Positions 877-29,436 of a stretch of 32,121 nt of DNA are shown in pieces. The notes below the pieces were generated by a model. The model was not told the origin of the DNA. It made no database searches and saw nothing but the letters and a program-made list of their open reading frames with translations. Every line of letters starts with the position of its first letter. Position 1 is the first letter of the stretch. The DNA comes from Chloroflexota bacterium (lineage in GTDB: Bacteria > Chloroflexota > Dehalococcoidia > UBA2247 > RBG-13-53-26): NCBI GenBank assembly GCA_003551705.1, contig PUNJ01000048.1, forward strand, positions 1-32,121. Direction: 5' to 3'. The position numbers and the translations under genes are program-made.

Positions 877-3303
877 ATGAGTACAGAGACCGGCATCAGA
901 GAAGAGACGAAACTGTGTCCCAGCACGCCGCGTACCAAGCAATTGAAGAAGGCCTACATGGAGGCCAAACCAAATATCTGCCTTGAACGCAGTGTTCTGG
1001 TTACGGAATCCTACAAGTCCACAGAGGCTCTGCCTCCCGTCCTGAGGCAGGCCCTAGCCTTTGACAAGGTCTTGACAGAAATGCCCATCTGGATACAGGA
1101 CGGCGAACTGGTTGTAAGCAATATAGCGTCGAGGCCCAGAGGTATATTCCTGTTCCCGGAGTATGACGACCTTTGGCTCAGGAAGGAACTGGACACCGTC
1201 TCGACACGGCCTGCCGATCCGTGGTTACTGAACGAGGAGGACAAGGAAAAGTGGCGGAACTGCGCAGAGTATTGGCAGAGGAGAAACCTGGCCGCGGTCG
1301 CCGATGCGCTTACTCTGGACGAAGTCAAGGCAGCGCAGCGGGTGCTCTTCATCGACATCAGCATGGGCAAACAGGGCGGTATCGGCCACATCGCGCCGGA
1401 TATAGAGGGGGTCATCAGGCATGGTCTAAATGCCTATATCGAGGCTGCCGAAAACCACATTCAGAGCCTGGACCACACAGATCCGGAGGACTATGCCAAA
1501 CTGCCCTTCCTCAAGGCTGTCCTCATTTCTGACAGGGCCGTTGTTAAATGGGCCGGCAGATTTGCGGCCCTGGCCCGGGAGAAGGCGGCCATGGAGGGTG
1601 ATCCTGTACGCAGGCAGGAGTTGGAGCAGATAGCCGAGACATGCGACTGGGTACCTGCAAAGCCGGCCCGGACTTTTCGCGAGGCGGTCCAAGTTGTGGC
1701 TCTTATAATGGCCTCCGTGCAGATCGAGTCAAACGGCGTCTCGATCGGCACCGGCAGGCTGGACCAGTACTGCTATCCCTTCTATGAGCGAGACATGCGG
1801 GAGGGCGTCATAACCAGGGATGGGGCCTTGGAACTCCTGGAGTGCCTGTGGCTGAAGATTGCCGAGTCCAACCGGGTGGTCAGCGCACGCAGCACCTATG
1901 TACATACCGGCTATCCCTTCTGGATACAGGTCCCCATAGGCGGCCAGACGCCGGACGGATATGATGCCACCAACGATGTTTCTTACCTCCTGCTGGATGT
2001 GTCCAGCAACATGCAGCTACACGAACCTACAGTCTCGGCCCGCATTCACAAGAAGACGCCGGACAGGTTTCTGATGCAGTGCTGCCAGGCCATCAAGTCT
2101 CATGGCGGCGGGCATCCAGCCCTGTTCAATGATGAGGTTATCATTCCCAGCCAGCTTGCCTATGTGCCCGGCATGACCAAGGAGGATGCCTACGATTACT
2201 GCATCATCGGATGCTCTGAAATATCCTTTGCCGGAAAGGGGACCGAAGGCATACCATACCATGCGGTGAGCCTGGGGAGGCTCCTCGAACTCATGCTGCA
2301 GGGCAAGGACCCGGTAACAGGAATGCCTGTTGAGCATGTTGGCGGGATGTTGGCCTGGGAGAACTTTGATGATATGATGCGGGCCTACCGGGAGCAGGTG
2401 CGCCGTTGTGCACGGATCATGTTTTTGCAGATACTGCCGCTGGTGGAGGCCCATAACAAACACAGGCCCTGCCCTTACCTGTCTTCGCTTACCATAGACT
2501 GCATCCGCCGGGGCAGGAGCTATTTTGATGGCGGGGCCCTGTACGGGAACTGGGTTGTCAATGCCTGCATCGTGGGCATAGCCACCCTGGCTAACTCATT
2601 GGCGGCTGTGCGCAAGCTCGTGTTCGACGACAGATCTGTCAGCATGGCCCAGCTGAAGCATGCGTTGGAAACCAATTTTGAGGATACCTCCACCAGTCCC
2701 ACTGGTCCGGAAATCCAGGACATGTGCATGGGTGCGCCCAAGTATGGGAACGATGAGCCCTACGTGGACAATCTGGCCAAGGACTGCCTGAACATCCTTG
2801 TTAAGGAGCTTCGCCGGTACGAGACCATGCCCGGCCAGGGCTATGGGGCCACCATATCGCCGGTGGCTGCGCACATAACCTATGGCGTGATCTGCGGGGC
2901 TACTCCGGACGGAAGGAAGGCGGGTACACCGTTGAGCGATGCTTGTTCGCCTGCCCAGGGCACAGACGTTAATGGACCGACAGCCACCATCAAGTCAGTG
3001 GCCAATCTGGAGCACATCAACCTTGTGCAAGGCACCATATTCAACATGAAGATGCATCCCGGGCCGCTGGGGACCAGGGCCGGCATGGTGAAGTGGGCTG
3101 ACCTGATAAGGACGTATTTTGATCTCGGAGGCTGGGAGATTCAGTTCAATGTAGTCGACGCGGACACCCTGAAAGCTGCCCAGAAAGAGCCGGAAAAATA
3201 CAGGGACCTGGTGGTAAGGGTGGTTGGCTACAGCGCTTTCTTTGTTGAGCTGGACCAGGCGGTGCAGGACGACATAATCAGGCGAACCGAGCATGGCATC
3301 TAA
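877..3303 (+). CDS. Glycyl radical enzyme of unassigned substrate (PFL-like family)
   Basis: This 808-residue protein has both signatures of the pyruvate formate-lyase/glycyl radical family. The thiyl cysteine is C446 in IIGCSEI, and the radical loop near the C-terminus is RVVGYSA with G784 as the radical site. The Cys-x-Glu pattern (C446, E448) is that of the eliminase/decarboxylase branch (diol dehydratase, choline lyase, hydroxyproline dehydratase) rather than the Cys-Cys of PFL. The middle residue is Ser where Val is usual, and the segment after it (ISFAGKGTEG) is not one I can tie to a known subfamily. Other family features are GRLDQYCYPFYERD near 293-306 and a PFL-type N-terminal domain. 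The activase follows 3 bp downstream. The enzyme would be cytosolic and destroyed by oxygen. Substrate unknown: dehydration, C-S, C-N or C-C cleavage are all possible. Confidence 0.93.
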   Translation: MSTETGIREETKLCPSTPRTKQLKKAYMEAKPNICLERSVLVTESYKSTEALPPVLRQALAFDKVLTEMPIWIQDGELVVSNIASRPRGIFLFPEYDDLWLRKELDTVSTRPADPWLLNEEDKEKWRNCAEYWQRRNLAAVADALTLDEVKAAQRVLFIDISMGKQGGIGHIAPDIEGVIRHGLNAYIEAAENHIQSLDHTDPEDYAKLPFLKAVLISDRAVVKWAGRFAALAREKAAMEGDPVRRQELEQIAETCDWVPAKPARTFREAVQVVALIMASVQIESNGVSIGTGRLDQYCYPFYERDMREGVITRDGALELLECLWLKIAESNRVVSARSTYVHTGYPFWIQVPIGGQTPDGYDATNDVSYLLLDVSSNMQLHEPTVSARIHKKTPDRFLMQCCQAIKSHGGGHPALFNDEVIIPSQLAYVPGMTKEDAYDYCIIGCSEISFAGKGTEGIPYHAVSLGRLLELMLQGKDPVTGMPVEHVGGMLAWENFDDMMRAYREQVRRCARIMFLQILPLVEAHNKHRPCPYLSSLTIDCIRRGRSYFDGGALYGNWVVNACIVGIATLANSLAAVRKLVFDDRSVSMAQLKHALETNFEDTSTSPTGPEIQDMCMGAPKYGNDEPYVDNLAKDCLNILVKELRRYETMPGQGYGATISPVAAHITYGVICGATPDGRKAGTPLSDACSPAQGTDVNGPTATIKSVANLEHINLVQGTIFNMKMHPGPLGTRAGMVKWADLIRTYFDLGGWEIQFNVVDADTLKAAQKEPEKYRDLVVRVVGYSAFFVELDQAVQDDIIRRTEHGI

Positions 3304-3306
3304 TCA

Positions 3307-4245
3307 GTGATGACGGGCAAGACGACCGGGCAGGTATTCAATATCCAGCGCTATTCCATCCACGACGGTGCCGGTATCCGGACACTGGTTTTCCTGAAAG
3401 GTTGTCCTTTCAGATGCCTATGGTGTTCCAATCCCGAGTCCCAGAAGGCCGGCCCGGAGCTTGGATATATTGAGTCCCGTTGTGTTGGTGCCGTCTCTTG
3501 CGGGGCACCATGTGTGGCGGTATGTGCTGCAGGGGCCCTGTCCCTGAATGCAGAGGATAGGGCTGTTGTTGACAGGCAGGGGTGTGATGTGTGCGGCAAG
3601 TGTGCCGGGGCATGCAGGAAGGGCGCCCTGAAGGTGGTCGGGCGTGAAATGATGGTGGATGAAGTCATGGCGGAGGTTGAGAAGGACAGGGCCTTCTACC
3701 GGCGGTCGGGTGGCGGGATGACGGTTGGCGGCGGCGAACCGCTGGCCCAGCCTGAGTTTACGGCTGTGCTGCTGAAGGCTGCTCAGGATGCCTTTCTCCA
3801 CACTGCCCTGGAAACTTGCGGCCATGCGCCTTGGAGACACCTCGAGGCAGTGTTGCGTCATGTGGACCAGCTGCAGTTTGATTTGAAACATCCGGACCCG
3901 GTCAGGCACCGTGAACTCACCGGGCAGTCCAACGAGCTGGCCCTGAGCAATCTCGAAAGGGTGCTCTCCGTGAAGGCTCCCGGCGACGTAATCATAAGAT
4001 TTCCCGTGGTCCCGGGATACACTGGCGAGATTGAGGACATCCAAGACATGGCCCGGTTTGTAGTCCGGCTGGGTTTCACGCAGGTGGAACTGGTCCCCTA
4101 TCACATGCTGGGAGCCTCCAAGTATGCCCAGTACGGGATGGTCTACCGGCTGGATGGTTGCGTTCCGCCGTCAGAGACGGTCATGGCCGGTCTTAGGCGT
4201 ACCGTGGAAGACCTCGGGTTGGCGGAGATGACCGGCAGGATCTGA
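3307..4245 (+). CDS. Glycyl radical enzyme activating protein (radical SAM)
   Basis: This radical SAM activase installs the glycyl radical on the enzyme encoded just upstream. The CxxxCxxC motif is C33, C37 and C40 (in GCPFRCLWC), binding the SAM-cleaving [4Fe-4S] cluster. A ferredoxin-like insert follows: C59-x5-C65-x3-C69-x3-C73 and C93-x2-C96-x2-C99-x3-C103, enough for two more clusters, as in activases of the eliminase-type enzymes and unlike the insert-free PFL activase. GGGMTVGGGEP near residue 136 is the SAM-binding glycine motif. Length (312) is normal. The start is GTG 3307 or ATG 3310, directly after the upstream stop, so the two genes are surely cotranscribed. Residue numbers use the GTG start. 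Confidence 0.95.
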   Translation: MMTGKTTGQVFNIQRYSIHDGAGIRTLVFLKGCPFRCLWCSNPESQKAGPELGYIESRCVGAVSCGAPCVAVCAAGALSLNAEDRAVVDRQGCDVCGKCAGACRKGALKVVGREMMVDEVMAEVEKDRAFYRRSGGGMTVGGGEPLAQPEFTAVLLKAAQDAFLHTALETCGHAPWRHLEAVLRHVDQLQFDLKHPDPVRHRELTGQSNELALSNLERVLSVKAPGDVIIRFPVVPGYTGEIEDIQDMARFVVRLGFTQVELVPYHMLGASKYAQYGMVYRLDGCVPPSETVMAGLRRTVEDLGLAEMTGRI

Positions 4246-9121: not shown

Positions 9122-11047
9122 GTGCTAGATAAGGCCGCTAACAGACCCCGCTTGCTGTTCAGTCCTATCACGATTGGGAACCTGGAACTAAAGAACAGGC
9201 TCTTAATGCCTCCCATGATTGAACGCCTGGCCAAGCATGGCATGGTGACACAGGCGGTAACCGATTTCTATGCCGCCCGGGCCAGGGGTGGGGTGGGGCT
9301 CATAGTTCTGACCCCGGGCATTATCGATGAGAGCATGGCCTCTGATATACAACTGGGCATCTATGAAGACCGTTTCATTCCCAGTCTGAAGGCATTCACA
9401 GAGGTTATCCACTCCTGCGGCGCCGCTATTGGTATCGAACTGATGCACCTGGGCAGGCAGGGGGGAGAGATCAAACGCTACAAACCCGTGGCGCCGTCGC
9501 CCATTCCATGGTCGCCCAACGAAGAGGCGCCCCGGGAATTGACCACCGGTGAGGTCGAAGACCTGGTGGAGAAATTTGCCGAAGGGGCCAGGCGGGCCAG
9601 GGAGGCGGGTTTTGACATGGTAGAGCTTCATGCCTGTCATGGCTATCTGCTGAGCGGCTTCCTCTCGCCTCACACGAACCAGCGGACCGACAAATATGGG
9701 GGAGATGTGGCCGGCAGGGCTCGCTTCGTTGTCGAGATCGTTAAGCTGGCCAAGGAAAGAGCCGGCAGCGATTGCCCCGTCAGCTGTCGCATAAACGGTG
9801 CTGACTACATGGTGGGCGGAACAACCCTGGAGGAGTCCAAGCAGATTGCCCATCTGCTGGTTAAGGCCGGCGCCGACTTGATCAGCGTCTCGTCAGGCGC
9901 CTATGGCTCCTATCCAGTGATCGTGCCGCCCTATGACCAGATACAGGGATGCAATCTCTACCTGGCGGAAGGCATCAAGCAGGTTGTGAATGTGCCTGTT
10001 GCGGTGGCAGGGCGCCTGAGCGATCCCTGGGTGGCCGAGGAGGCGCTTGCTGCCGGGAAGACCGATCTCATAGCGGTGGCCAGAGGACTTCTTGCTGACC
10101 CGGAGTTGCCCAACAAGGCGGCAAGGGGCGACTATGAGGATATTCGGAACTGTCTATCCTGCAATGTATGCATCGATGCGGATGCAACCAAGCCCATTCA
10201 GTGTACCGTGAACCCCGAGGCGGGACGGGAGAGAGAAATGACGCTTCAACCTGCAGGCACGAAGAAGCGAGTTGTTGTGGTCGGTGGTGGACTGGCCGGT
10301 CTTGAGGCGGCCAGGGTGGCGGCCCTGCGCGGGCACAAGGTCACCCTGTATGAGGAGGACTCTGAAGTCGGTGGGCAGTGGCTGCTGGCGGCGGCTGCTC
10401 CGCACAAGGACAGGCATGCCGGAATACTGGACTACTATAAGCGCCAACTGGGCACGGCCGGCGTTGATGTCAAGACCGGTGTAAGGGCCACAGTGGAGAT
10501 GTTGTCGCAGGACGAGCCGGATGCTCTGGTGGTTGCCACGGGAGCCGAGCCATTGGTTCCACTCATACCGGGTGTAGACAGCGAGGACGTGGTCACAGCA
10601 TGGGAGGTCCTGTCGGGTCGTCAGGTGGGAAGCCGGGTGGCTGTGCTTGGAGGTGGTATGACGGGACTGGAGACGGCGGAGTTACTGGTCGGGCAGGGCA
10701 GGTCGGTGGTGGTCATTGAGATGCTGAAAAGGGTGGGGGCCGATCTGGGCGGTACGGTACGCTGGCACATGATGAACCGGATCAAGGGGCTGAGTATAGA
10801 GTTGTTCACTCTGACCAAGGTCAAGGAGATACGGCCGGGCGGCGAATTAGTGGTGGAGCGGAATGGGACTGAAGAGGTCTGGCCGGGGTTTGACAGCATC
10901 GTCCTTGCGTGCGGATCGCGTCCGAGAAAGGATATGAATGGTTTGAGTTCTTTGGTGAAAGAACTCTATGTTATAGGCGACGCGGTTAATATTCGCAAGG
11001 GATTGGACGCAATAGGCGATGGAGCCGAGGTGGGCCGGCAGGTATGA
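9122..11047 (+). CDS. 2,4-dienoyl-CoA-reductase-like FMN/FAD/Fe-S oxidoreductase
   Basis: This 641-residue protein is built like 2,4-dienoyl-CoA reductase and trimethylamine dehydrogenase. An N-terminal FMN TIM barrel of the old yellow enzyme type spans about 10-340 (MHLGRQGG near 108, HACHGYLLSGFLSP at 170-183). A [4Fe-4S] cysteine cluster lies at 344-361, and FAD/NAD(P)-binding Rossmann domains follow (VVVVGGGLAGLEAA near 384; second site AVLGGGMTGLETA). Cluster spacing is C344-x2-C347-x2-C350-x10-C361, one residue tighter in two places than the usual x2/x3/x11. The GTG start at 9122 follows AGGAGGAG closely; the overlapping ATG at 9120 runs into a stop. Likely role: NAD(P)H-dependent reduction of an enoyl/dienoyl-CoA or another activated double bond. 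Trimethylamine dehydrogenase activity is possible but not supported by neighbours. Confidence 0.9.
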   Translation: MLDKAANRPRLLFSPITIGNLELKNRLLMPPMIERLAKHGMVTQAVTDFYAARARGGVGLIVLTPGIIDESMASDIQLGIYEDRFIPSLKAFTEVIHSCGAAIGIELMHLGRQGGEIKRYKPVAPSPIPWSPNEEAPRELTTGEVEDLVEKFAEGARRAREAGFDMVELHACHGYLLSGFLSPHTNQRTDKYGGDVAGRARFVVEIVKLAKERAGSDCPVSCRINGADYMVGGTTLEESKQIAHLLVKAGADLISVSSGAYGSYPVIVPPYDQIQGCNLYLAEGIKQVVNVPVAVAGRLSDPWVAEEALAAGKTDLIAVARGLLADPELPNKAARGDYEDIRNCLSCNVCIDADATKPIQCTVNPEAGREREMTLQPAGTKKRVVVVGGGLAGLEAARVAALRGHKVTLYEEDSEVGGQWLLAAAAPHKDRHAGILDYYKRQLGTAGVDVKTGVRATVEMLSQDEPDALVVATGAEPLVPLIPGVDSEDVVTAWEVLSGRQVGSRVAVLGGGMTGLETAELLVGQGRSVVVIEMLKRVGADLGGTVRWHMMNRIKGLSIELFTLTKVKEIRPGGELVVERNGTEEVWPGFDSIVLACGSRPRKDMNGLSSLVKELYVIGDAVNIRKGLDAIGDGAEVGRQV

Positions 11048-16275: not shown

Positions 16276-16683
16276 CTAGCCCAGGTTCATTACTCTGCCG
16301 ACGCTATTGGCCACCTCTTCACCGTTTTGATTGGTGATGATGGACCTCATGGAGATCAGCAGACGCTTGCCTTTCTCGCTGGACTTGTCCTCTACGTTAA
16401 ACAATTCGTTCTGTATGGTGATTGTATCTCCAGGCCGGATAGGCTTCATCAGGTTCAGTTCAAGGCCGCCGTCAACGATGCCCGGATAGGGCCATTCCAT
16501 GGGCACGCCTTCGCCCATGAACATGGCTGCGGTGAGAAGCCCTGGCGGCATCTCGTTCTGCCACCTGGGATTCCTGTCTTCAAGTGTGTCGCAGTAAAGG
16601 CGGATCATGCTCTTATCAATATAGAAGCTGGTGGGTCTGCCACGATTACCGATTAGTTTCTTCAAGTCCTCCACAGTGGCCAT
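16276..16683 (-). CDS. MaoC-like hotdog dehydratase/hydratase subunit, His-less motif
   Basis: This 135-residue hotdog protein of the MaoC/FAS1-type dehydratase (N-terminal domain) group is expected to act on the C2-C3 double bond of an acyl-CoA. The hydratase-2 signature normally reads D-x-N-P-x-H; here it is D36-R-N38-P39-R-W41, so the catalytic His is replaced by Trp. In the actinobacterial steroid pathway, hydratases of this type (ChsH1-ChsH2) work as pairs of unequal chains, so this could be a non-catalytic half. No second MaoC gene is visible in the operon. RBS GGAGG precedes ATG 16683. It is the last gene of the operon, 28 bp after the thiolase-like gene. Confidence 0.85.
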   Translation of the reverse strand: MATVEDLKKLIGNRGRPTSFYIDKSMIRLYCDTLEDRNPRWQNEMPPGLLTAAMFMGEGVPMEWPYPGIVDGGLELNLMKPIRPGDTITIQNELFNVEDKSSEKGKRLLISMRSIITNQNGEEVANSVGRVMNLG

Positions 16684-16711
16684 AATACGCCTCCTTAGCT
16701 GTTTTTCTCGA

Positions 16712-17926
16712 TTACCAGGCTTTGCTGACTATGCAGGCAGCGTTATTGCCCGCATAGCCGTAGGTCTGGGCAATGGCTACCTTTGGATCGTTCTTGACCT
16801 GCCGTTCTCCGGCCTCACCCCTGAGCTGTTTGGCGAGCTCGTAGATCTGGAACAGGCCTTGGGCAACGACGGCTTCACCACAGGAGCCCAGCCCACCGCT
16901 TGGACACACCGGCAGTTTGCCGGTCATTGGGTCCACCGCCCCACTCCTTAGCAGCTTCTCTGCTTCGCCATCATGGGCCTGCAAGATGCAGTCCAAGTAC
17001 GCGAAGTAATGCCATGAACTATTATCAGGCAATTCAATCAGGTCAACGTCTTCCGGCCGCCTGTTGGCCATTTTGTACGCTGCCGCGATCGAGTTCCTGC
17101 TCTCGGTCAGGATACCGACACCTGGTCTCGGGAAAGTGCTCAGATAGGTGAGAGGTATGGTATGGTCGCCGAAAGTGGGGCTGCCGATGACTGCGGCATC
17201 GATAAGGATCGGCTTCTGAGTATACTTCTTGGCCTTGTCCATGGAGCACACAATAATAGCGCCGGCACCGTCGCTGGTGGCGCAGATCTCGAGAAGGTGC
17301 AGGGGGTCACAGACCATTGGCGAATTAAGAACGTCTTCCTTGGTGAAGGCCTTCTTGTACCTGGTCTTGGGGTTGAACGGGGCAATCTTGCTGGTTACAA
17401 CCTTCACTTCGGCCAGGTCATCCTCAGTGGTGCCTACGTCGGCCATTCTTCTCTTGCATTCCATGGCCCAGTATGCCGGATTGGTCTCGCCGGTCATCAC
17501 ATAACGAATATAGTCCAAGTCGAACTGCGGGTCTTCCGACTGGGGACGGAAGAAGCCGCCGGCTGACTTGTCGGCTGCTACGGCAATGGCCGTATCATAG
17601 AGCCCGCTGGCTACTGCGAGGTAAGCCTCACGGAATATAGCCCCGCCGGTAGCACAGGCATTGGCGCAGCTGGTGATCGGGATGCCTATCCCTCCCATGG
17701 CTGCTGATATAGCGGTCCCGCTGAGTATGCCGAACATGCCTTCCCGCTGGGTGACCCAGAGATAGCCCCCGGATACCATGGACTCGACCTCGCGCCATTC
17801 CATATTTGCATCGGCCAGAGCCTCAGTGATGGCTTCGACTGCCATTTCGGGCATCGACTTTTCCCCGAAGACGCCCCAAGGGTGGAGTCCGACGCCGACT
17901 ATTGCTACATCCCTAAACTTTTGCAT
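16712..17926 (-). CDS. Thiolase-superfamily protein, Ltp2/SCP-x-like (probable acyl-CoA aldolase)
   Basis: This 404-residue thiolase-fold protein is of the lipid-transfer/SCP-x branch. The nucleophile position of thiolases is present (C91 in NACATGG). The GHPxG motif carrying the thiolase His is replaced by SCGEAVVAQG, and the last motif reads YGYAGNNAACIV. Loss of thiolase residues is known for Ltp2, which is a retro-aldolase in cholesterol side-chain breakdown and needs a DUF35 partner. The DUF35 gene lies 42 bp upstream in the same operon, so a DUF35-aldolase complex is the best guess. Simple thiolysis (acetyl-CoA acetyltransferase) is the alternative. ATG 17926 follows AAGGAG. Protein is cytosolic, with no signal peptide. 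Confidence 0.9.
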   Translation of the reverse strand: MQKFRDVAIVGVGLHPWGVFGEKSMPEMAVEAITEALADANMEWREVESMVSGGYLWVTQREGMFGILSGTAISAAMGGIGIPITSCANACATGGAIFREAYLAVASGLYDTAIAVAADKSAGGFFRPQSEDPQFDLDYIRYVMTGETNPAYWAMECKRRMADVGTTEDDLAEVKVVTSKIAPFNPKTRYKKAFTKEDVLNSPMVCDPLHLLEICATSDGAGAIIVCSMDKAKKYTQKPILIDAAVIGSPTFGDHTIPLTYLSTFPRPGVGILTESRNSIAAAYKMANRRPEDVDLIELPDNSSWHYFAYLDCILQAHDGEAEKLLRSGAVDPMTGKLPVCPSGGLGSCGEAVVAQGLFQIYELAKQLRGEAGERQVKNDPKVAIAQTYGYAGNNAACIVSKAW

Positions 17927-17968
17927 ATTCTCTTCTCCTTGGTCCTAATTTCTGGCAGCGGATACCCG

Positions 17969-18388
17969 CTAGCTTACGGGCTTCCACATCCAGGTGACGT
18001 ATTCGTTCTCATCGTCTTCGTACAGCTTGCCCGCCGTCAACTCGACTTTCCCGCCAAGTTTGACGTTATCTGTTGTTGTCAGGATGCCCAGAACGCGCAG
18101 TCCCTCCGAAGTGTCAACCATGGCGATGCCATAGGGCTCGAATGGTTCCTTCTTGAAAGGAGCTGGAGGAGCATAAATCTGGGTGGTGTAGGTCCACACC
18201 GTCCCCGTGTTGCTGAGGTTAACGATCTCTACATTATCTCTCTTCTTCTCGCAATCGGGATTGGCACAGAATGCCGCCTTGGGGAAGGTCACGGTCCCAC
18301 ACTTCTTGCACTTGCTTGCTATAAGTTGTGGTTTATCCGAGGGCCATGTAAACAACCCTTCGATTATGGGGATTTTGTTCTTAGCCAT
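17969..18388 (-). CDS. DUF35 zinc-ribbon/OB-fold acyl-CoA-associated protein
   Basis: This 139-residue stand-alone DUF35 protein has an N-terminal rubredoxin-like zinc ribbon (C27-x2-C30 and C41-x4-C46) followed by an OB fold (about 55-135, with GTVWTYTTQIYAP and PYGIAMVD). Such proteins bind thiolases or aldolases and can help hold the CoA substrate. In the steroid pathway DUF35 is fused to the MaoC chain ChsH2 and is needed by Ltp2. Here it is a separate gene between the acyl-CoA dehydrogenases and the thiolase-like gene, which suggests a partner role. ATG 18388 follows AAAGGAG. Confidence 0.93.
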   Translation of the reverse strand: MAKNKIPIIEGLFTWPSDKPQLIASKCKKCGTVTFPKAAFCANPDCEKKRDNVEIVNLSNTGTVWTYTTQIYAPPAPFKKEPFEPYGIAMVDTSEGLRVLGILTTTDNVKLGGKVELTAGKLYEDDENEYVTWMWKPVS

Positions 18389-18460
18389 ACAGGGTCTCCT
18401 TTCTCACCTTAACATATTCCCTTGATCCTTGGCGGGATATGGACCAGGACGGCAACTCAA

Positions 18461-19588
18461 CTAGAGTCCTATGGCCCTGGCCACAAACTGGCGCTGGGTC
18501 GGGGCATCGCCGAAAGCGAAAGCTGACGGCATAACCCGCTTGGAGTAGAGCGGTAAATCGTGGTCCTCACAGAAACCTATAGCGCCATGACATTGGTGCG
18601 CAAGATCACATATGCGTTTATAAGCATCACTATTCCATGACTTGGCCATGGCAGCCTCCTTGCTATAGGGGATGCCTTCGTTTATTCTCCAAGCTGCCAG
18701 GTATGTAATATACTTCATGCCTTCCAGATCGATCAGCATGTTGGCGCAATGATGTTGCAAAGCCTGCAGGCTACCAATAGGATGGTCGAACTGGACTCGC
18801 TCCTTGACGTAATCTGTAGTCATGTCCATGACCTGCTGGGCTCCACCGACCATCTCAGCGCACTTCAAGGTTGCTGCCCATTTGATCAACCGCCTCACTT
18901 CTCTCTCGGTTTCCATGCCCTCTGCAAGCATGCGACCATGGGGTACCTTCACATTCTTGAGTGTCACCTGGAATTGTTTTTCCCCTCCAAGGGACTGCAG
19001 GGGGGTACACACAACCCCGGGACTCCTCATGTCTACCAGAAAGGGCGTTACCTGTCTCTTGCCGGTGCCACTTCTGATTCCCGCAAGGCAGATCATCATG
19101 TCGGCCACGTCGGCGTTATCGACAAAGAGCTTGGTGCCTTTGATTACATAACCACCGTTCTTGACTGTGGCCTGGGAGCGTATGGCATCCAGTTCATATC
19201 CTACACCAGGCTCGCTGATTGCCAGGGTAAGGACCATGCTGCCCTCAGCTACCTGGGGAAGTAGTTCCTGCTTTTGTGGTTGGCTGCCCATATTCATCAG
19301 CGCGAGGGTGCCAACAAGCGTGGTAAAGAACGGTCCGGGCAGGCTGGCTCTTCCCGTTTCCTCAATCAGTGCGGCTGCATCCAGAAAGCTTCCGCCCGTG
19401 CCACCAAATTCTTCAGGAATGACAAGCCCCATCCAGCCAAGCTCTGCCATCTTCTGCCAGAGTTTGGGGTCATGCCCGGTCTGTTCCCTGATCATTTGCC
19501 TGATTGTATCTCTGGGACACTCCGTAGCCAGAAAATCCCTGGCTATCTTTCTCAGCATTTCCTGTTCTTCGCTATAAGAGAAATCCAT
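18461..19588 (-). CDS. Acyl-CoA dehydrogenase, degenerate subunit of a pair
   Basis: This 375-residue acyl-CoA dehydrogenase fold has the three usual parts: N-terminal helices (1-118), beta domain (119-220) and C-terminal helices. The flavin/substrate loop, normally SEPxAGSD, reads SEPGVGYE at 125-132, and the C-terminal FAD segment (usually GGTSEIQR) is FGDAPTQRQF. The C-terminal RVQFDHPIGSLQALQH and GAIGFCEDHDLPLYSKR segments are intact and resemble FadE29-like chains. This loss on one chain with retention on the neighbour fits an alpha2beta2 acyl-CoA dehydrogenase as known for steroid side-chain enzymes (ChsE). The companion gene ends 18 bp upstream. ATG 19588 follows AAGAGGA. Confidence 0.9.
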   Translation of the reverse strand: MDFSYSEEQEMLRKIARDFLATECPRDTIRQMIREQTGHDPKLWQKMAELGWMGLVIPEEFGGTGGSFLDAAALIEETGRASLPGPFFTTLVGTLALMNMGSQPQKQELLPQVAEGSMVLTLAISEPGVGYELDAIRSQATVKNGGYVIKGTKLFVDNADVADMMICLAGIRSGTGKRQVTPFLVDMRSPGVVCTPLQSLGGEKQFQVTLKNVKVPHGRMLAEGMETEREVRRLIKWAATLKCAEMVGGAQQVMDMTTDYVKERVQFDHPIGSLQALQHHCANMLIDLEGMKYITYLAAWRINEGIPYSKEAAMAKSWNSDAYKRICDLAHQCHGAIGFCEDHDLPLYSKRVMPSAFAFGDAPTQRQFVARAIGL

Positions 19589-19606
19589 GTTTATATCCTC
19601 TTCCTT

Positions 19607-20788
19607 CTAACTTCTCGGTAAGCCAAGTCCTCGCATGGCTATCGTGTTTCTCTGAATCTCTGATGTTCCACCGGCGAGGGATAGTCCTCTGTTGAAGTTA
19701 TAGAGGAAGGTGAACCTCTTCCTGAGTGCTGCCCACTTGGGATCGTCCTGTAGTTGGATTTCGGGGCCCAGTACCTGGAGTCCTATTGCGGCTATGCGCT
19801 GGCCGAGTTCATCAGCAAAGGTCTTCACGACTGAAGATTCCCAGCTCAGGCTGGCGCCCTGGTTCATCAGCCAGGCAGCCTTGTAATTGATCATGCGGCT
19901 GACTTCCAACTCAATCGCAATCTCGGCCAATTGGTCACGCAATACCTGGTCATCCAAGAGGCTCCGGCCGTTATAACGTGTTTGGGTTGTGTATTCCACC
20001 AGTTCTTCGAGGTCCTTCCGGCTCCCAGCGTGTCTCAGGCACCTGCCCCAGAACCTGTCTCCCTCCAGGCATTCAAAAACCAGGGGCAAGCCCCGGTTTT
20101 CCTGTCCCAGAAGGTTCTCCCTGGGCACGCGAACATCTTCCAGGAAGATCTCTGTGAATGACTCGGCTCCGGCCATGTCGATGATGGGGTTCACGGTAAC
20201 GCCAGGGCTTCTAACGTCGACGAGGAAGGTGCTCAGTCCTCGTGACTTGGGTGCTTCAGGGTCCGTACGAGCCAGAATAAGGGACCATTCGGCCAGGTGG
20301 GCGCCGGTTGGCCAGATCTTTTGGCCGTTAAGTATGTAATCATCGCCGCTCTTGATTGCTCTTGTAGCGGTATTGAGCAGGTCGGAACCTGCGCCAGGCT
20401 CGCTCAGCCCTGTAGAAAAAAGTATCTCGGCTCGAGCCAGCTTCGGCAGAAAGTCCTTTTTCTGTGCCTCGGTCCCGTGGGTGAGAAGTCCTGCAGCCAC
20501 GGCATCGCCGAATAAATGGCCGTACTGGGGGGCCCGGTGATAGGCAAGCTCTTCAGCGACGACGAATCGCTCCATGACGGTGCGGCCCATGCCGCCGTAT
20601 TCCTGGGGCCACGAGATGGACAACCATCCTTTCTGGCCAAGTCTGGTAGTGAAGGCACGCGACCACCCACCGAAGCCATAGCCCTCATCCTCGATCTCGC
20701 AGGGGAATGATTCGGGAGGTTCTTCTTCACAGAATTGGCGCACTTGGAGCCGGAGTTTCTCTTCCTGCTCGGAAAACCGGAAATCCAT
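19607..20788 (-). CDS. Acyl-CoA dehydrogenase, FAD-binding subunit of a pair
   Basis: This 393-residue acyl-CoA dehydrogenase introduces a 2,3 double bond into an acyl-CoA and passes electrons to ETF. The flavin loop is canonical (GLSEPGAGSD, 127-136), as is the C-terminal GGTSEIQRNTIAMRGLGLP. The MCAD-type base position (Glu of YEGT) is Gly, as in the isovaleryl/FadE-like groups, so the base must lie elsewhere. Similar long-range features place it near FadE28/ACAD11-like enzymes. It is second in the operon, 8 bp after the PPOX-like gene and 18 bp before the second dehydrogenase gene. The RBS is weak (GGGG), suggesting coupled translation. No etfAB genes are visible in the window. Confidence 0.92.
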   Translation of the reverse strand: MDFRFSEQEEKLRLQVRQFCEEEPPESFPCEIEDEGYGFGGWSRAFTTRLGQKGWLSISWPQEYGGMGRTVMERFVVAEELAYHRAPQYGHLFGDAVAAGLLTHGTEAQKKDFLPKLARAEILFSTGLSEPGAGSDLLNTATRAIKSGDDYILNGQKIWPTGAHLAEWSLILARTDPEAPKSRGLSTFLVDVRSPGVTVNPIIDMAGAESFTEIFLEDVRVPRENLLGQENRGLPLVFECLEGDRFWGRCLRHAGSRKDLEELVEYTTQTRYNGRSLLDDQVLRDQLAEIAIELEVSRMINYKAAWLMNQGASLSWESSVVKTFADELGQRIAAIGLQVLGPEIQLQDDPKWAALRKRFTFLYNFNRGLSLAGGTSEIQRNTIAMRGLGLPRS

Positions 20789-20796
20789 GATAATGC

Positions 20797-21180
20797 TTAC
20801 CCCGCTTTCATAGGAGGCATGATGACTGCCTCTTCGATGGCTATCTTGACGACGCTCTTGACCTCCATTTTGAGCGGCGCAAATTGTGCTTTGAAGGAGT
20901 CGAAAAGTTCACCGCTATCCAGTAACTCAGCATTCCCGCTTATGCGGCAGCCGCCCCATGTGGCCTGATTGAACATTACTATGGCTACTTGGGGATTCTC
21001 CTTGAGGTTGGCCAGGGTATTGGGGGATGCCATTTCGGCGAAGGCAACATGTTCATCGTCGAGTATCTGTAGGGACCCCTTAGGGGAGACGTTTGGCTTA
21101 CCGGTCTTGCTTGCGGTGGCAACGAAGGCGGGAAACGACTCGGAGATTACCTTCTTCATTTCGTCTGTTAACTTAGTCAT
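20797..21180 (-). CDS. Pyridoxamine-5'-phosphate-oxidase-like (PPOX/split barrel) flavin protein
   Basis: This 127-residue split-barrel protein belongs to the PNPOx-like family, which binds FMN or F420. Typical segments are FPAFVATASKTGKPNVSPKG, LANLKENPQVAIVMFN and GCRISGNAELL. Proteins of this size are usually FMN- or F420-dependent reductases of unknown substrate, not the vitamin B6 oxidase itself. The frame stays open far upstream, but ATG 21180 is the start: GAAGGAGGG precedes it, a promoter lies just beyond, and the upstream part is antisense to a real gene. It is first in the acyl-CoA operon, so a redox role there is possible. Confidence 0.88.
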   Translation of the reverse strand: MTKLTDEMKKVISESFPAFVATASKTGKPNVSPKGSLQILDDEHVAFAEMASPNTLANLKENPQVAIVMFNQATWGGCRISGNAELLDSGELFDSFKAQFAPLKMEVKSVVKIAIEEAVIMPPMKAG

Positions 21181-21318: not shown

Positions 21319-22365
21319 ATGTTGGAATTCAGGACCGGGGGCACTAATGTACTTGAGACCAGAGTTGGGAACGTAGTGCAGTATTTGGCTGAGGGGGTCA
21401 AGATATACTGCATCGAGGTGGAAAGCTTTCCCAATCATGTCACCAACATGTACCTGGTACTGGATGGTGCCGCCACTTTTATCGATGTAGGGTTCAACGG
21501 GCCGCAGTCCCAGAAGGACCTGGCCAGAGGGTTTGACATAATCAACACCAGTTTCGGCGATGGTGTTGATCTGGCGGATGTAGCCAATATAGTAATAACC
21601 CACGGCCATGGAGACCACTTCGGCATGCTTGAATACGGCAAGCTGAAAGGTAGAAGGGTGTTCATCCATCCTCTGGATAGCTGGGTGATACGGGACTACT
21701 CCGGTACCTACCAGAATTGGAAAAGGAATATGCGGGAACTCCTCTTTGAAGCCGGTTGTGGCAGGGACCTGGACCAGATCTTCCCTGTGGAGCAACTGGA
21801 CTACCATATATCGGAGTACGATCTCGTAGAAGTGGTGGACGGCCAGCAGATCATCAATGGCTACGAAGTTTATCATACCCCCGGGCACAGCCTGGGTGAG
21901 ATATGCTTGAGGGTTGGCCCCTTGATGTTCCTGGGCGACCATATGTTGTCCATCACCACGCCACACCAAGTCCCGACTTCCGGCTGGCAGGGTGCCGGTC
22001 TGATGAATTACCTGCACTCGCTCAGGAAGGTGGCTGCTTCAGGGGTCGACCTGGGGCTGGCCGCTCACGAAAACGCCATATACCCGGTCAGTGCCAGGGC
22101 CAGGGAGATTGAGCACTTCCACATGAGACGGCTTGAGGAGATCCGCGATCTGTGCAGGTTTGCCATGACCTTGTACCAGGTCACGGACGAGTATTACCGA
22201 GGCCACCCCGAGTTGATACAGGCATCTTCCCTGGATGATCTCCCCGTTGATGATGTGCTGCTGGCCCTGGAAGAGATCAAGGCGCATCTGGAGTACCTGG
22301 TGGATGAGGGGAGACTGTGCGTGACCGGCGTGGACAGCGGTGTGCCGCGGTACCTGGCTATCTGA
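21319..22365 (+). CDS. Metallo-beta-lactamase-fold hydrolase
   Basis: This 348-residue MBL-fold protein has a canonical dinuclear metal site: H95-x-H97-x-D99-H100 (THGHGDH), the next His in YHTPGHSLGE, and the bridging Asp in FLGDHML. The helical C-terminal part (about 250-348) resembles the tail of glyoxalase-II/thioesterase-like MBL proteins with a winged-helix-like end. The family hydrolyses thioesters, lactones or phosphodiesters; with an acyl-CoA operon divergently placed, a CoA-thioester substrate is plausible but unproven. The start follows GAGAGG. The gene is followed 9 bp later by a small membrane-peptide frame. Confidence 0.9.
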   Translation: MLEFRTGGTNVLETRVGNVVQYLAEGVKIYCIEVESFPNHVTNMYLVLDGAATFIDVGFNGPQSQKDLARGFDIINTSFGDGVDLADVANIVITHGHGDHFGMLEYGKLKGRRVFIHPLDSWVIRDYSGTYQNWKRNMRELLFEAGCGRDLDQIFPVEQLDYHISEYDLVEVVDGQQIINGYEVYHTPGHSLGEICLRVGPLMFLGDHMLSITTPHQVPTSGWQGAGLMNYLHSLRKVAASGVDLGLAAHENAIYPVSARAREIEHFHMRRLEEIRDLCRFAMTLYQVTDEYYRGHPELIQASSLDDLPVDDVLLALEEIKAHLEYLVDEGRLCVTGVDSGVPRYLAI

Positions 22366-27987: not shown

Positions 27988-29436
27988 CTACTCGAGGACG
28001 AGACCGCTTATCTCTTTCTTCAATCGCGAGCACATTTCCTCAGTTAAACAGGACCCGTTGCCACTCAGGATCTCATCGACACGCTCTCGGGCTCTTTCCC
28101 AGCTCTGCTTGCCTCCCTGGGCCAGCCACTCGTCCCGGCTGAGGCGGTCGCTGATGGTGGGCTGGTAATGCTCCCGCCTCATGTGAGTCCTCGTATGCTT
28201 GGCTGTAACAAAGTTGCCTCCCGGGCCGACTTCCTTGATGAGGTCATAGGCCAGAGTCTCCTCGTCGACCCTGATACCCTCAACGGCTCTCATGGCCATG
28301 CCCAGGATATCATTGTCTATCACATATTTTTCGTAGGACACGGTCATGGCGAACTCCATCAGTCCGGCCGAGTCATGGATGAAGTTTGATCCCGCCAGAG
28401 CGCACAGTGTGGCGGTGATGGCGGATTCGTAACCGCTTTGGGAATCGAGAGTTTTGGAGTCCGTCATTCCGCCGGTGGCGTAGTAAGGTAGTTCATAGAA
28501 CTGGGCCATCTGGGCAGAGGCGGCGTTAATCAGGCCCATCTCTACGGAGCCGGCCAGGTAGCCGAAATTGGCCAGATCGGTGCTTGTGGCGACGGAGCCG
28601 AAAATTACCGGTGTCCCGGGATTGACTAGCTGGGCCAGCATAACTCCGATGAGTGAGTCGACCGTCTGCATGAGCACGTTGCCTGCCAGAGTTACGGGCG
28701 AAGTAGCCCCGCACAATGGTTCGGATGGGCACACCACCGGGAGTCCTCGCTGGGCGATGTGGATCAGGTAATCCCCGTATTCGCCGTCGATCTTGAGGGG
28801 ACTGACTGTGCAAGCAATGAGCGATATGAACGGTCTTTCGCGGAGCTTGTCCGGCGATCCTGCAATGATTTCGGCCATCTGGATCACCTGCTTGAGGCCG
28901 TCCATGGTATAAAGCCCGCCCATAACGTGCTTGGTTGTGTTCTCGAGCCCTGCAAAGAAGCGATTAACGTCCACATTCTCAACGGAAAGCTCATTGGGAT
29001 AGGTTGGAAGCAGGAGAACGTGGATGTTATCGAGCTTGTCAACGAGCCTGCTGATTGTTTTGAGGTCGTCGAGGCTGGCCAGCCGCCTGTCACCGGTGGC
29101 GTGTTCATATACATAAAGCGCAGTGCCGCCGGTGGCCGAGTGGACCCTGGTTCCTCCCAGTCTGACGTCATGTTTCTTGTCCCGGCCGCAAAGCGTTACC
29201 TCGCTGGGAGCCAATTTGATCAACTCGATGGCCTTTTCCTGGGGCAGACGCACAAGGCGCGTTTCATCATCAACGCTCGCCCCGGCCTGCCTGAAGTAGT
29301 CCAAGCCGTCCTTAGTATGCACCTGGAAACCGACCTCTTCGATGAGGCGCATGGCATGCTGATGGATCATGTTGATGCCGTCTTCGTTCAGAGGCTTGTA
29401 GGTACCACCGGGTACCCCTTTCCGAATGGTCTTCAA
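27988..29436 (-). CDS. MttB-family (non-pyrrolysine) corrinoid methyltransferase, paralogue 1
   Basis: This 482-residue protein is of the same superfamily, with LNEDGINMIHQHAMRLIEEVGF at the N-terminus, SATGGTALYVYE, TKHVMGGLYTMDGL, LPYYATGGMTDSK and a C-terminal KHTRTHMRREHYQP tail typical of the non-pyrrolysine group. No in-frame stop interrupts it. It should transfer a methyl group from a quaternary or tertiary amine to the corrinoid protein encoded two genes downstream. The start is TTG 29436: AGGAAGGAG sits 6 nt before it, and it overlaps the stop of the upstream gene as TTGA. Longer starts up to 29481 would lie inside the upstream gene. The tight overlap suggests coupled translation with the activation-domain protein. 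Confidence 0.93.
   Translation of the reverse strand: MKTIRKGVPGGTYKPLNEDGINMIHQHAMRLIEEVGFQVHTKDGLDYFRQAGASVDDETRLVRLPQEKAIELIKLAPSEVTLCGRDKKHDVRLGGTRVHSATGGTALYVYEHATGDRRLASLDDLKTISRLVDKLDNIHVLLLPTYPNELSVENVDVNRFFAGLENTTKHVMGGLYTMDGLKQVIQMAEIIAGSPDKLRERPFISLIACTVSPLKIDGEYGDYLIHIAQRGLPVVCPSEPLCGATSPVTLAGNVLMQTVDSLIGVMLAQLVNPGTPVIFGSVATSTDLANFGYLAGSVEMGLINAASAQMAQFYELPYYATGGMTDSKTLDSQSGYESAITATLCALAGSNFIHDSAGLMEFAMTVSYEKYVIDNDILGMAMRAVEGIRVDEETLAYDLIKEVGPGGNFVTAKHTRTHMRREHYQPTISDRLSRDEWLAQGGKQSWERARERVDEILSGNGSCLTEEMCSRLKKEISGLVLE

Follow-up and report, generated by a model that had tools for sequence, protein, structure and literature searches.

The window analysed here is contig PUNJ01000048.1 of a Chloroflexota bacterium, read over its full 32,121 nucleotides; it is contig C5 of a 2.81-Mb genome that is 95% complete. 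On the minus strand, running from 21180 to 16276, lies an operon of six genes that encode a PPOX flavoprotein, two acyl-CoA dehydrogenases (ACADs), a DUF35 protein, a thiolase-fold protein and a MaoC-like protein (Table 1). An initial annotation had likened the last five to the igr cassette, with which actinobacteria remove the last propionyl unit of the cholesterol side chain. All five are present, on one strand and in conserved order; the flavoprotein gene at the head of the operon had gone unnamed. The clearest new element at the locus is what appears, from its sequence, to be a conserved and unfamiliar active site in the clade of the thiolase-fold protein P0002.

Layout and conservation of the operon

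Intergenic gaps, from P0006 through to P0001, are 8, 18, 72, 42 and 28 nt. The order and strand of the six genes are kept in five related genomes (L032, L033, L034, L035 and L037). In L040 all six are found in the same order, but P0003 and P0004 are matched just partly; in L036 the copy stops at a contig end beyond P0003. Where synonymous divergence (dS) is unsaturated, the ratio of non-synonymous to synonymous change (dN/dS) is 0.05–0.18, as expected of purifying selection. Given the conserved order and strand and the low dN/dS, the arrangement is not due to chance. Orthologues of P0002 occur in eight of ten genomes of the same family, and in three of a sample of 400 members of the phylum.

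Table 1. Genes and sequence features of the operon and its borders (positions in the window)
Feature	Description	Length	Position (strand)	Basis
P0006	FMN protein of PPOX/PNPOx type, leading gene	127 aa	20797..21180 (-)	PF01243, 72 bits
P0005	Alpha-type subunit of heteromeric acyl-CoA dehydrogenase	393 aa	19607..20788 (-)	Best PDB match ChsE4/FadE26 (4x28_A)
P0004	Beta-type subunit of heteromeric acyl-CoA dehydrogenase	375 aa	18461..19588 (-)	Motifs; tree, with ChsE5 and Tcur3481
P0003	DUF35 protein, ChsH2-type zinc ribbon and OB fold	139 aa	17969..18388 (-)	PF01796, PF12172
P0002	Thiolase-fold protein, non-canonical active site	404 aa	16712..17926 (-)	NF004715, 365 bits
P0001	MaoC-like/FAS1_DH hot-dog protein without catalytic His	135 aa	16276..16683 (-)	PF13452
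Inverted repeat	Perfect 13-bp repeat, 5-nt loop, 44 nt beyond last stop codon		16201..16231 (-)	Folding z = -3.8
Promoter-like site	TTGCCT-17-TAGAAT with TG (extended -10-like), just 5′ of P0006		21203..21231 (-)	
P0007	MBL-fold hydrolase, divergent neighbour of the operon		21319..22365 (+)	PF00753

The operon had also been credited with a promoter and a terminator of its own. One extended -10-like site does precede P0006, and as a promoter it is plausible only: the consensus scan returned no more promoter-like sites in the region than shuffled sequence (6 versus 3.2 ± 2.0). Downstream, the inverted repeat is a probable terminator or 3′ hairpin, although no T-run lies behind it and the consensus scan made no call there; terminator sites from that scan were likewise not above chance in the region. 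P0006 has a strong Shine-Dalgarno sequence (AAGGAGG) and is kept as the leading gene in six relatives (68–73% identity); its match to NCBIfam TIGR04025 falls below cut-off. P0007 is divergent from the operon also in L002 and L033 (60% identity); in the remaining relatives it was not seen next to the operon.

Subunits encoded by the operon

The two ACADs show complementary losses. P0005 has neither the adenine-binding motif R.QFG.P...FQ nor HGGxG, and retains AGGTSEIQR; P0004 retains RVQFDHPIGSLQ, which contains the flavin adenine dinucleotide (FAD)-adenine motif R.QFG.P...FQ, together with HGAIG, and reads FGDA where the catalytic YEGT would stand. Such a division of FAD and catalytic motifs between two proteins is the hallmark of the steroid-type α2β2 enzymes. 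As judged from sequence, P0005 is thus the alpha subunit and P0004 the beta subunit of a heteromeric (α2β2) steroid-type ACAD, and the two presumably form a complex. On the phylogenetic tree, ChsE4 and Tcur3483 share the alpha clade with P0005 (support 100), and ChsE5 and Tcur3481 share the beta clade with P0004 (support 99); P0005 and P0004 both lie apart from straight-chain MCAD and from the other ACADs of the genome. Grouping with straight-chain or ketone-body enzymes, the outcome that the initial annotation had set against its own proposal, was thus not seen for the ACADs, and such an origin is rejected by their placement.

Among solved structures the best relative of P0005 is ChsE4 (FadE26) of M. 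tuberculosis (217 bits), followed by Tcur3483 (178 bits). At the position of the ChsE4 catalytic Glu247 (HER), P0005 and its orthologues carry an Asp (EGDR) that is invariant among relatives. Within the alpha clade the steroid enzymes cluster with other paralogues of this genome and not with P0005, and P0004 is likewise not their closest relative within the beta clade. The comparison bears out the steroid-type class and not a specific relationship to the igr-side enzymes: P0005 scores higher against ChsE4/FadE26 than against Tcur3483. P0004 has five paralogues in the genome at 42–53% identity; the remaining ACADs are at most 30% identical. In the ACAD tree L074 and L078 are one open reading frame (ORF) picked twice, and the ChsE, TcLtp2 and other PDB references comprise the aligned parts printed by HMMER rather than full chains.

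P0001 carries D-x-N-P-x-W, with an invariant Trp at the position of the catalytic His; in the inert ChsH2 this His is replaced by Tyr (PMC11321319). The fold nearest to its structural model (pLDDT 79) is the ChsH2 chain of the ChsH1-ChsH2 complex (E 1e-7). Motif and model point to a catalytically inert, substrate-binding MaoC of the ChsH2/HadA type. Three paralogues of P0001 are present in the genome (on contigs C8, C9 and C36), each adjoining a gene for a catalytic HadB-like MaoC. The operon contains no catalytic (ChsH1-type) MaoC; such catalytic genes occur elsewhere in the genome.

P0002 is 28–31% identical to solved thiolases and TcLtp2 alike (TcLtp2, 28%). Thiolases carry the motifs NxCxxG, HDCF and GHP, TcLtp2 carries YDHF and GEAY with catalytic Tyr294 and Tyr344, and in CtSal the catalytic residues are Tyr302 and Cys304 (PMC12329534). 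P0002 has NACATGG, in which the Cys is retained, PDNSSWHY replacing HDCF/YDHF, and GEAVV replacing GHP: both thiolase catalytic His residues are absent, and Pro and Val stand at the positions of TcLtp2 Tyr294 and Tyr344. PDNSSWHY is invariant across all orthologues, among them those from two further families of Chloroflexota and from three archaeal genomes. In the thiolase tree the P0002 clade is separate from Ltp2 (100/100) and from the SCP2/AACT/BbsB thiolases. (Three tandem own-genome paralogue pairs in this tree, L013/L015, L016/L019 and L017/L018, each represent a single ORF that was selected two times; the motif readings given below treat both members of each pair separately.)

The initial designation of P0002 as ‘Ltp2-like’ must be abandoned: TcLtp2 is only eighth among its PDB relatives. 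A retro-aldolase of the Ltp2/Sal kind was rejected on the grounds of PDNS in place of the catalytic Tyr motif YD(H/C)(F/Y) and the separate clade from TcLtp2; an SCP2-type thiolase was rejected because the Cys is present but HDxF and GHP are lost. Nor does P0002 qualify as a member of NF004715/PRK06059 (‘lipid-transfer protein’), scoring 364.7 bits against a curated cut-off of 424; relatives in its clade score 329–423, a Sphingopyxis plasmid protein 460 and a Nonomuraea protein 690 bits. By sequence, then, P0002 falls in a clade of its own close to NF004715/PRK06059, with members in Chloroflexota and in Nezhaarchaeota-type archaea. An AlphaFold model of P0002 (six sequences) was poor (pLDDT 47.5) and was not used.

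P0003 is a DUF35 protein with a four-Cys zinc ribbon and OB fold; its solved relatives are PDB 6esq_E, BbsA and the DUF35 part of ChsH2. Its zinc knuckle reads C-x2-C-x10-C-x4-C, whereas that of the compared DUF35s beside the other thiolases of the genome ends in C-x2-C. The same knuckle is common to the partners of P0002-clade proteins in same-family Chloroflexota, archaea and Sphingopyxis. Since a DUF35 gene adjoins the P0002-type gene in every neighbourhood read, with the matching unusual knuckle in most, the two proteins have apparently evolved together, and P0003 is expected to be the structural partner of P0002. Three archaeal genomes (L003, L004 and L005) hold DUF35-thiolase pairs 64–71% identical to those of the window, an identity that suggests transfer between Chloroflexota and archaea. 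These archaeal pairs adjoin 3-hydroxyacyl-CoA dehydrogenase-like and FAD/Fe-S oxidoreductase-like genes.

Host genome and related cassettes

The closest named relative of the host is Chloroflexi bacterium B9_G15 (L002), a metagenome-assembled genome of the Guaymas series. Marker genes were searched in the host genome with single queries, one marker at a time. A haem-copper oxidase was not found (cytochrome bd was not searched), nor was KshA (KshA_C). The window itself also holds a glycyl-radical enzyme with its activase (877–4245) and MttB/corrinoid methyltransferase genes. From these genes, and from the missing oxidase, we infer with good support that the host is an anaerobe, as had been proposed from its neighbouring genes.

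Three further features of the window were observed. The activase is nearest to the model for (2S)-3-sulfopropanediol dehydratase activase (351 bits, cut-off 430). An Old-yellow-enzyme/BaiCD-like flavoprotein lies at 9122–11047 (497 bits, BaiCD cut-off 825). The Rfam model PYLIS_3, the pyrrolysine insertion element of mttB, matches at 28368–28467 (-) within an MttB gene; because the reading frame has no internal stop, this is probably an MttB relative without pyrrolysine.

In total the genome encodes six P0004-type subunits and four alpha-beta ACAD cassettes, on C5, C67, C196 and C8. The C67 cassette (L089, 5340–13463) comprises an IpdA-like and IpdB-like pair of the CoA-transferase family, an HMGCS-like gene, a thiolase and ACADs in alpha-beta-alpha order. 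IpdAB catalyses the opening of the final ring in steroid degradation (PMC5380842). The C67 A subunit scores 194 bits against M. tuberculosis IpdA versus 111 against glutaconate CoA-transferase, and keeps the Glu aligned with the residue changed in the 6coj IpdA variant. The proposed search for ring-degradation genes covered KshA and IpdAB; it yielded an IpdA-like protein with an IpdB-like neighbour, and no KshA_C. IpdA of the P0010 type is patchy among relatives and shows no clear co-occurrence with the operon. The C67 cassette sits downstream of complex-I-type antiporter subunits, and its gene set resembles the KstR2 regulon for the last steroid rings.

The C196 cassette combines an ACAD alpha-beta pair with a tandem Cys-less thiolase-like pair, two DUF35s and CoA-transferase-like genes. 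The C8 cassette contains short-chain dehydrogenase/reductase genes, a HadB-like and an inert MaoC, ACADs in beta-alpha order, and FixC-like, FixX-like and EtfB-like genes. The last three immediately follow the heteromeric ACAD pair (L090, 7052–9053) and are likely an electron outlet for the heteromeric dehydrogenases. Tandem Cys-less thiolase-like pairs number three (L091, 2435–5757, on C196; L095, 7284–10578, on C139; L096, 1225–3558, on C76). They have YEPSNW or YLPFS with TN(P/A)IGAT, plus a degenerate partner, and two of the three are accompanied by two DUF35 genes; they probably form heteromeric complexes. On C139 (L095, 3–6592) a glycyl-radical enzyme and activase stand beside the thiolase-like/DUF35 set, along with what sequence judgement makes a probable molybdopterin oxidoreductase.

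Possible function and relation to known systems

On balance we favour the view that the operon is an oxygen-independent module, igr-like in layout yet not an igr operon, that acts on a bulky acyl-CoA. Most likely it shortens a bulky, branched or cyclic acyl-CoA; a steroid is a possible substrate. Because the active site of P0002 is so altered, the acid is probably different from that of the cholesterol cassette and the chemistry new. The P0005-P0004 enzyme would introduce a 2,3 double bond into the branched or ring-bearing acyl-CoA, and the electrons would pass on via electron-transferring flavoprotein (ETF). P0001 would serve as the inert subunit that cradles the substrate in a heteromeric MaoC hydratase, whose catalytic half would have to be supplied from another locus, for example by a HadB-like MaoC gene. 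Assuming that the pathway runs in the direction of breakdown, the hydrated product would next go to the P0002-P0003 complex, which would act at its C2-C3 bond. The active site there retains the Cys but reads PDNSS and GEA where catalytic His/Tyr residues would stand; it is neither that of thiolases nor that of the known steroid aldolases. We favour this reading because the ACAD motif losses are complementary and the pair is placed with steroid pairs, apart from MCAD; because P0001 is His-less and ChsH2-like, with paralogues that each adjoin a HadB-like MaoC; because DUF35 adjoins the thiolase-fold gene in every neighbourhood read, and the corresponding igr parts make one complex; because six-gene synteny is kept under purifying selection; and because the genome has three more heteromeric-ACAD cassettes (C67, C196 and C8).

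Several observations weigh against it. A catalytic MaoC gene is missing from the operon, the presumed base of P0005 is Asp rather than Glu, and the PPOX protein P0006 fits nowhere in the proposed scheme. The top NCBIfam match of P0005 is a PimCD-type dehydrogenase, a type not active on steroids. The residues of P0002 match no enzyme of known reaction, so that cleavage is conjecture, based on its fold and its setting. Finally, two of the three archaeal genomes with P0002 at 65–67% identity have no P0005-type ACAD; the P0002-P0003 reaction is therefore independent of these ACADs.

The alternative that survives best, though we consider it unlikely, is a biosynthetic module in which the P0002 Cys accepts an acyl group and makes a C-C bond (by acyl transfer or condensation), with the MaoC and ACADs running reductively. 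The NACATGG Cys is kept throughout the P0002 clade and lost in TcLtp2, both ACADs have acryloyl-CoA reductase as one of their top NCBIfam matches, and near-universal presence in the family would fit a housekeeping product; moreover, some enzymes that work in complex with DUF35 are condensing ones, archaeal AACT/HMGCS and PhlABC being examples (PMC12329534). However, P0002 has lost the His residues that thiolases require for Claisen chemistry, heteromeric ACADs of known function are catabolic, and the paralogous cassettes look catabolic too, with genes of the ETF-quinone type on C8 and CoA-transferase-like genes on C67 and C196.

Somewhat less probable again is the degradation of a non-steroid acid, such as a dicarboxylic, alicyclic or arylsuccinate-type acyl-CoA, by enzymes like PimCD or like BbsAB of anaerobic toluene degradation. 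P0002 and P0003 have BbsB and BbsA among their nearest relatives of solved structure, and the C139 glycyl-radical enzyme lies near thiolase/DUF35 genes; but the HDAF and GHP of BbsB are absent from P0002. The models of the large (PimC) and small (PimD) subunits match the ACADs, yet all these matches are far below cut-off, and the operon has no substrate-activating gene.

A true anaerobic igr orthologue, removing the last propionyl unit of a steroid or hopanoid side chain, is more doubtful still. Gene content, ACAD type and the ChsH2-like fold of P0001 agree with it, as does the C67 IpdA-like protein beside its ACADs and thiolase. Against this, P0002 is without the catalytic residues of Ltp2, yet of all igr proteins Ltp2 is the most strongly conserved, 61–64% identical between Comamonas and actinobacteria (PMC12502768); ChsH1 and KshA_C are both missing, from the operon and the genome respectively; IpdA is patchy while the operon is near-constant in the family; and archaeal P0002 orthologues occur without these ACADs. 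That the genes are ordinary straight-chain beta-oxidation or ketone-body genes misread as special is very improbable: every fold belongs to beta-oxidation superfamilies, and the archaeal P0002 relatives lie near 3-hydroxyacyl-CoA dehydrogenase-like genes, but the ACAD pair architecture, the lost thiolase residues and the inert MaoC all speak against it.

The favoured reading, an oxygen-independent module for a bulky acyl-CoA, can be extended, tentatively, in two linked ways. A lineage of Chloroflexota in anoxic sediments may process polycyclic or isoprenoid acids without oxygen, by a pathway assembled from several heteromeric-ACAD cassettes in parallel, one of which includes a ring hydrolase of the IpdAB type. 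P0002-P0003 may represent a third class of C-C lyase with the thiolase fold, after thiolases and the Ltp2/Sal aldolases, which Nezhaarchaeota-type archaea would share through transfer. Few model organisms are known for oxygen-free degradation of the side chains and rings of steroids and terpenoids, and a family-wide operon of igr architecture with a rebuilt C-C cleaving site would indicate new chemistry on persistent sedimentary lipids. There is also a caution: the labels ‘lipid-transfer protein’ and ‘acetyl-CoA acetyltransferase’ conceal enzymes whose residues preclude thiolase activity.

Compared with the igr operons of M. tuberculosis, T. curvata and Comamonas (ORF40-44), which encode ChsE1-ChsE2, ChsH1-ChsH2 and Ltp2, the window unites a heteromeric ACAD pair, an inert MaoC, a DUF35 and a thiolase fold, at about 28–35% identity. 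The igr-type composition first proposed thus stands for the steroid-type ACAD pair and the inert ChsH2-type MaoC, and not for ChsH1, for Ltp2 with its Tyr294/Tyr344, or for the fusion of MaoC and DUF35 seen in igr ChsH2, which here are separate genes (P0001 and P0003); the PPOX gene is extra, and the host apparently oxygen-independent. The MaoC, DUF35 and aldolase parts of igr make one complex (PMC12502768, PMC11321319), whose domains still work when expressed apart; the split halves of Comamonas keep their function (PMC12502768).

The ACADs share with ChsE4-ChsE5 (4x28) and Tcur3481-Tcur3483 (6wy8) their clades and the complementary loss of FAD and base motifs; they differ in the Asp of the alpha subunit and in not being the closest in-clade relatives of those steroid enzymes. 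P0002 shares the GEA motif, the N-terminal Cys and an adjacent DUF35 with NF004715/PRK06059, its nearest named family, for which no tested function was found; PDNSSWHY is confined to the Chloroflexota/archaeal clade, Sphingopyxis having ADNSVW and Nonomuraea YDLSTA. With the Ltp2/Sal retro-aldolases it has in common the SCP2-thiolase fold, a DUF35 partner and the loss of the thiolase catalytic His, but not YDHF/YDCY or Tyr344, and its clade is separate (from Ltp2 by tree; from Sal by motif only). Although BbsAB and the archaeal AACT/HMGCS complex retain the HD(A/C)F and GH(P/A) that P0002 does not, they resemble P0002-P0003 in pairing a thiolase fold with a separate DUF35 subunit, at about 30% identity.

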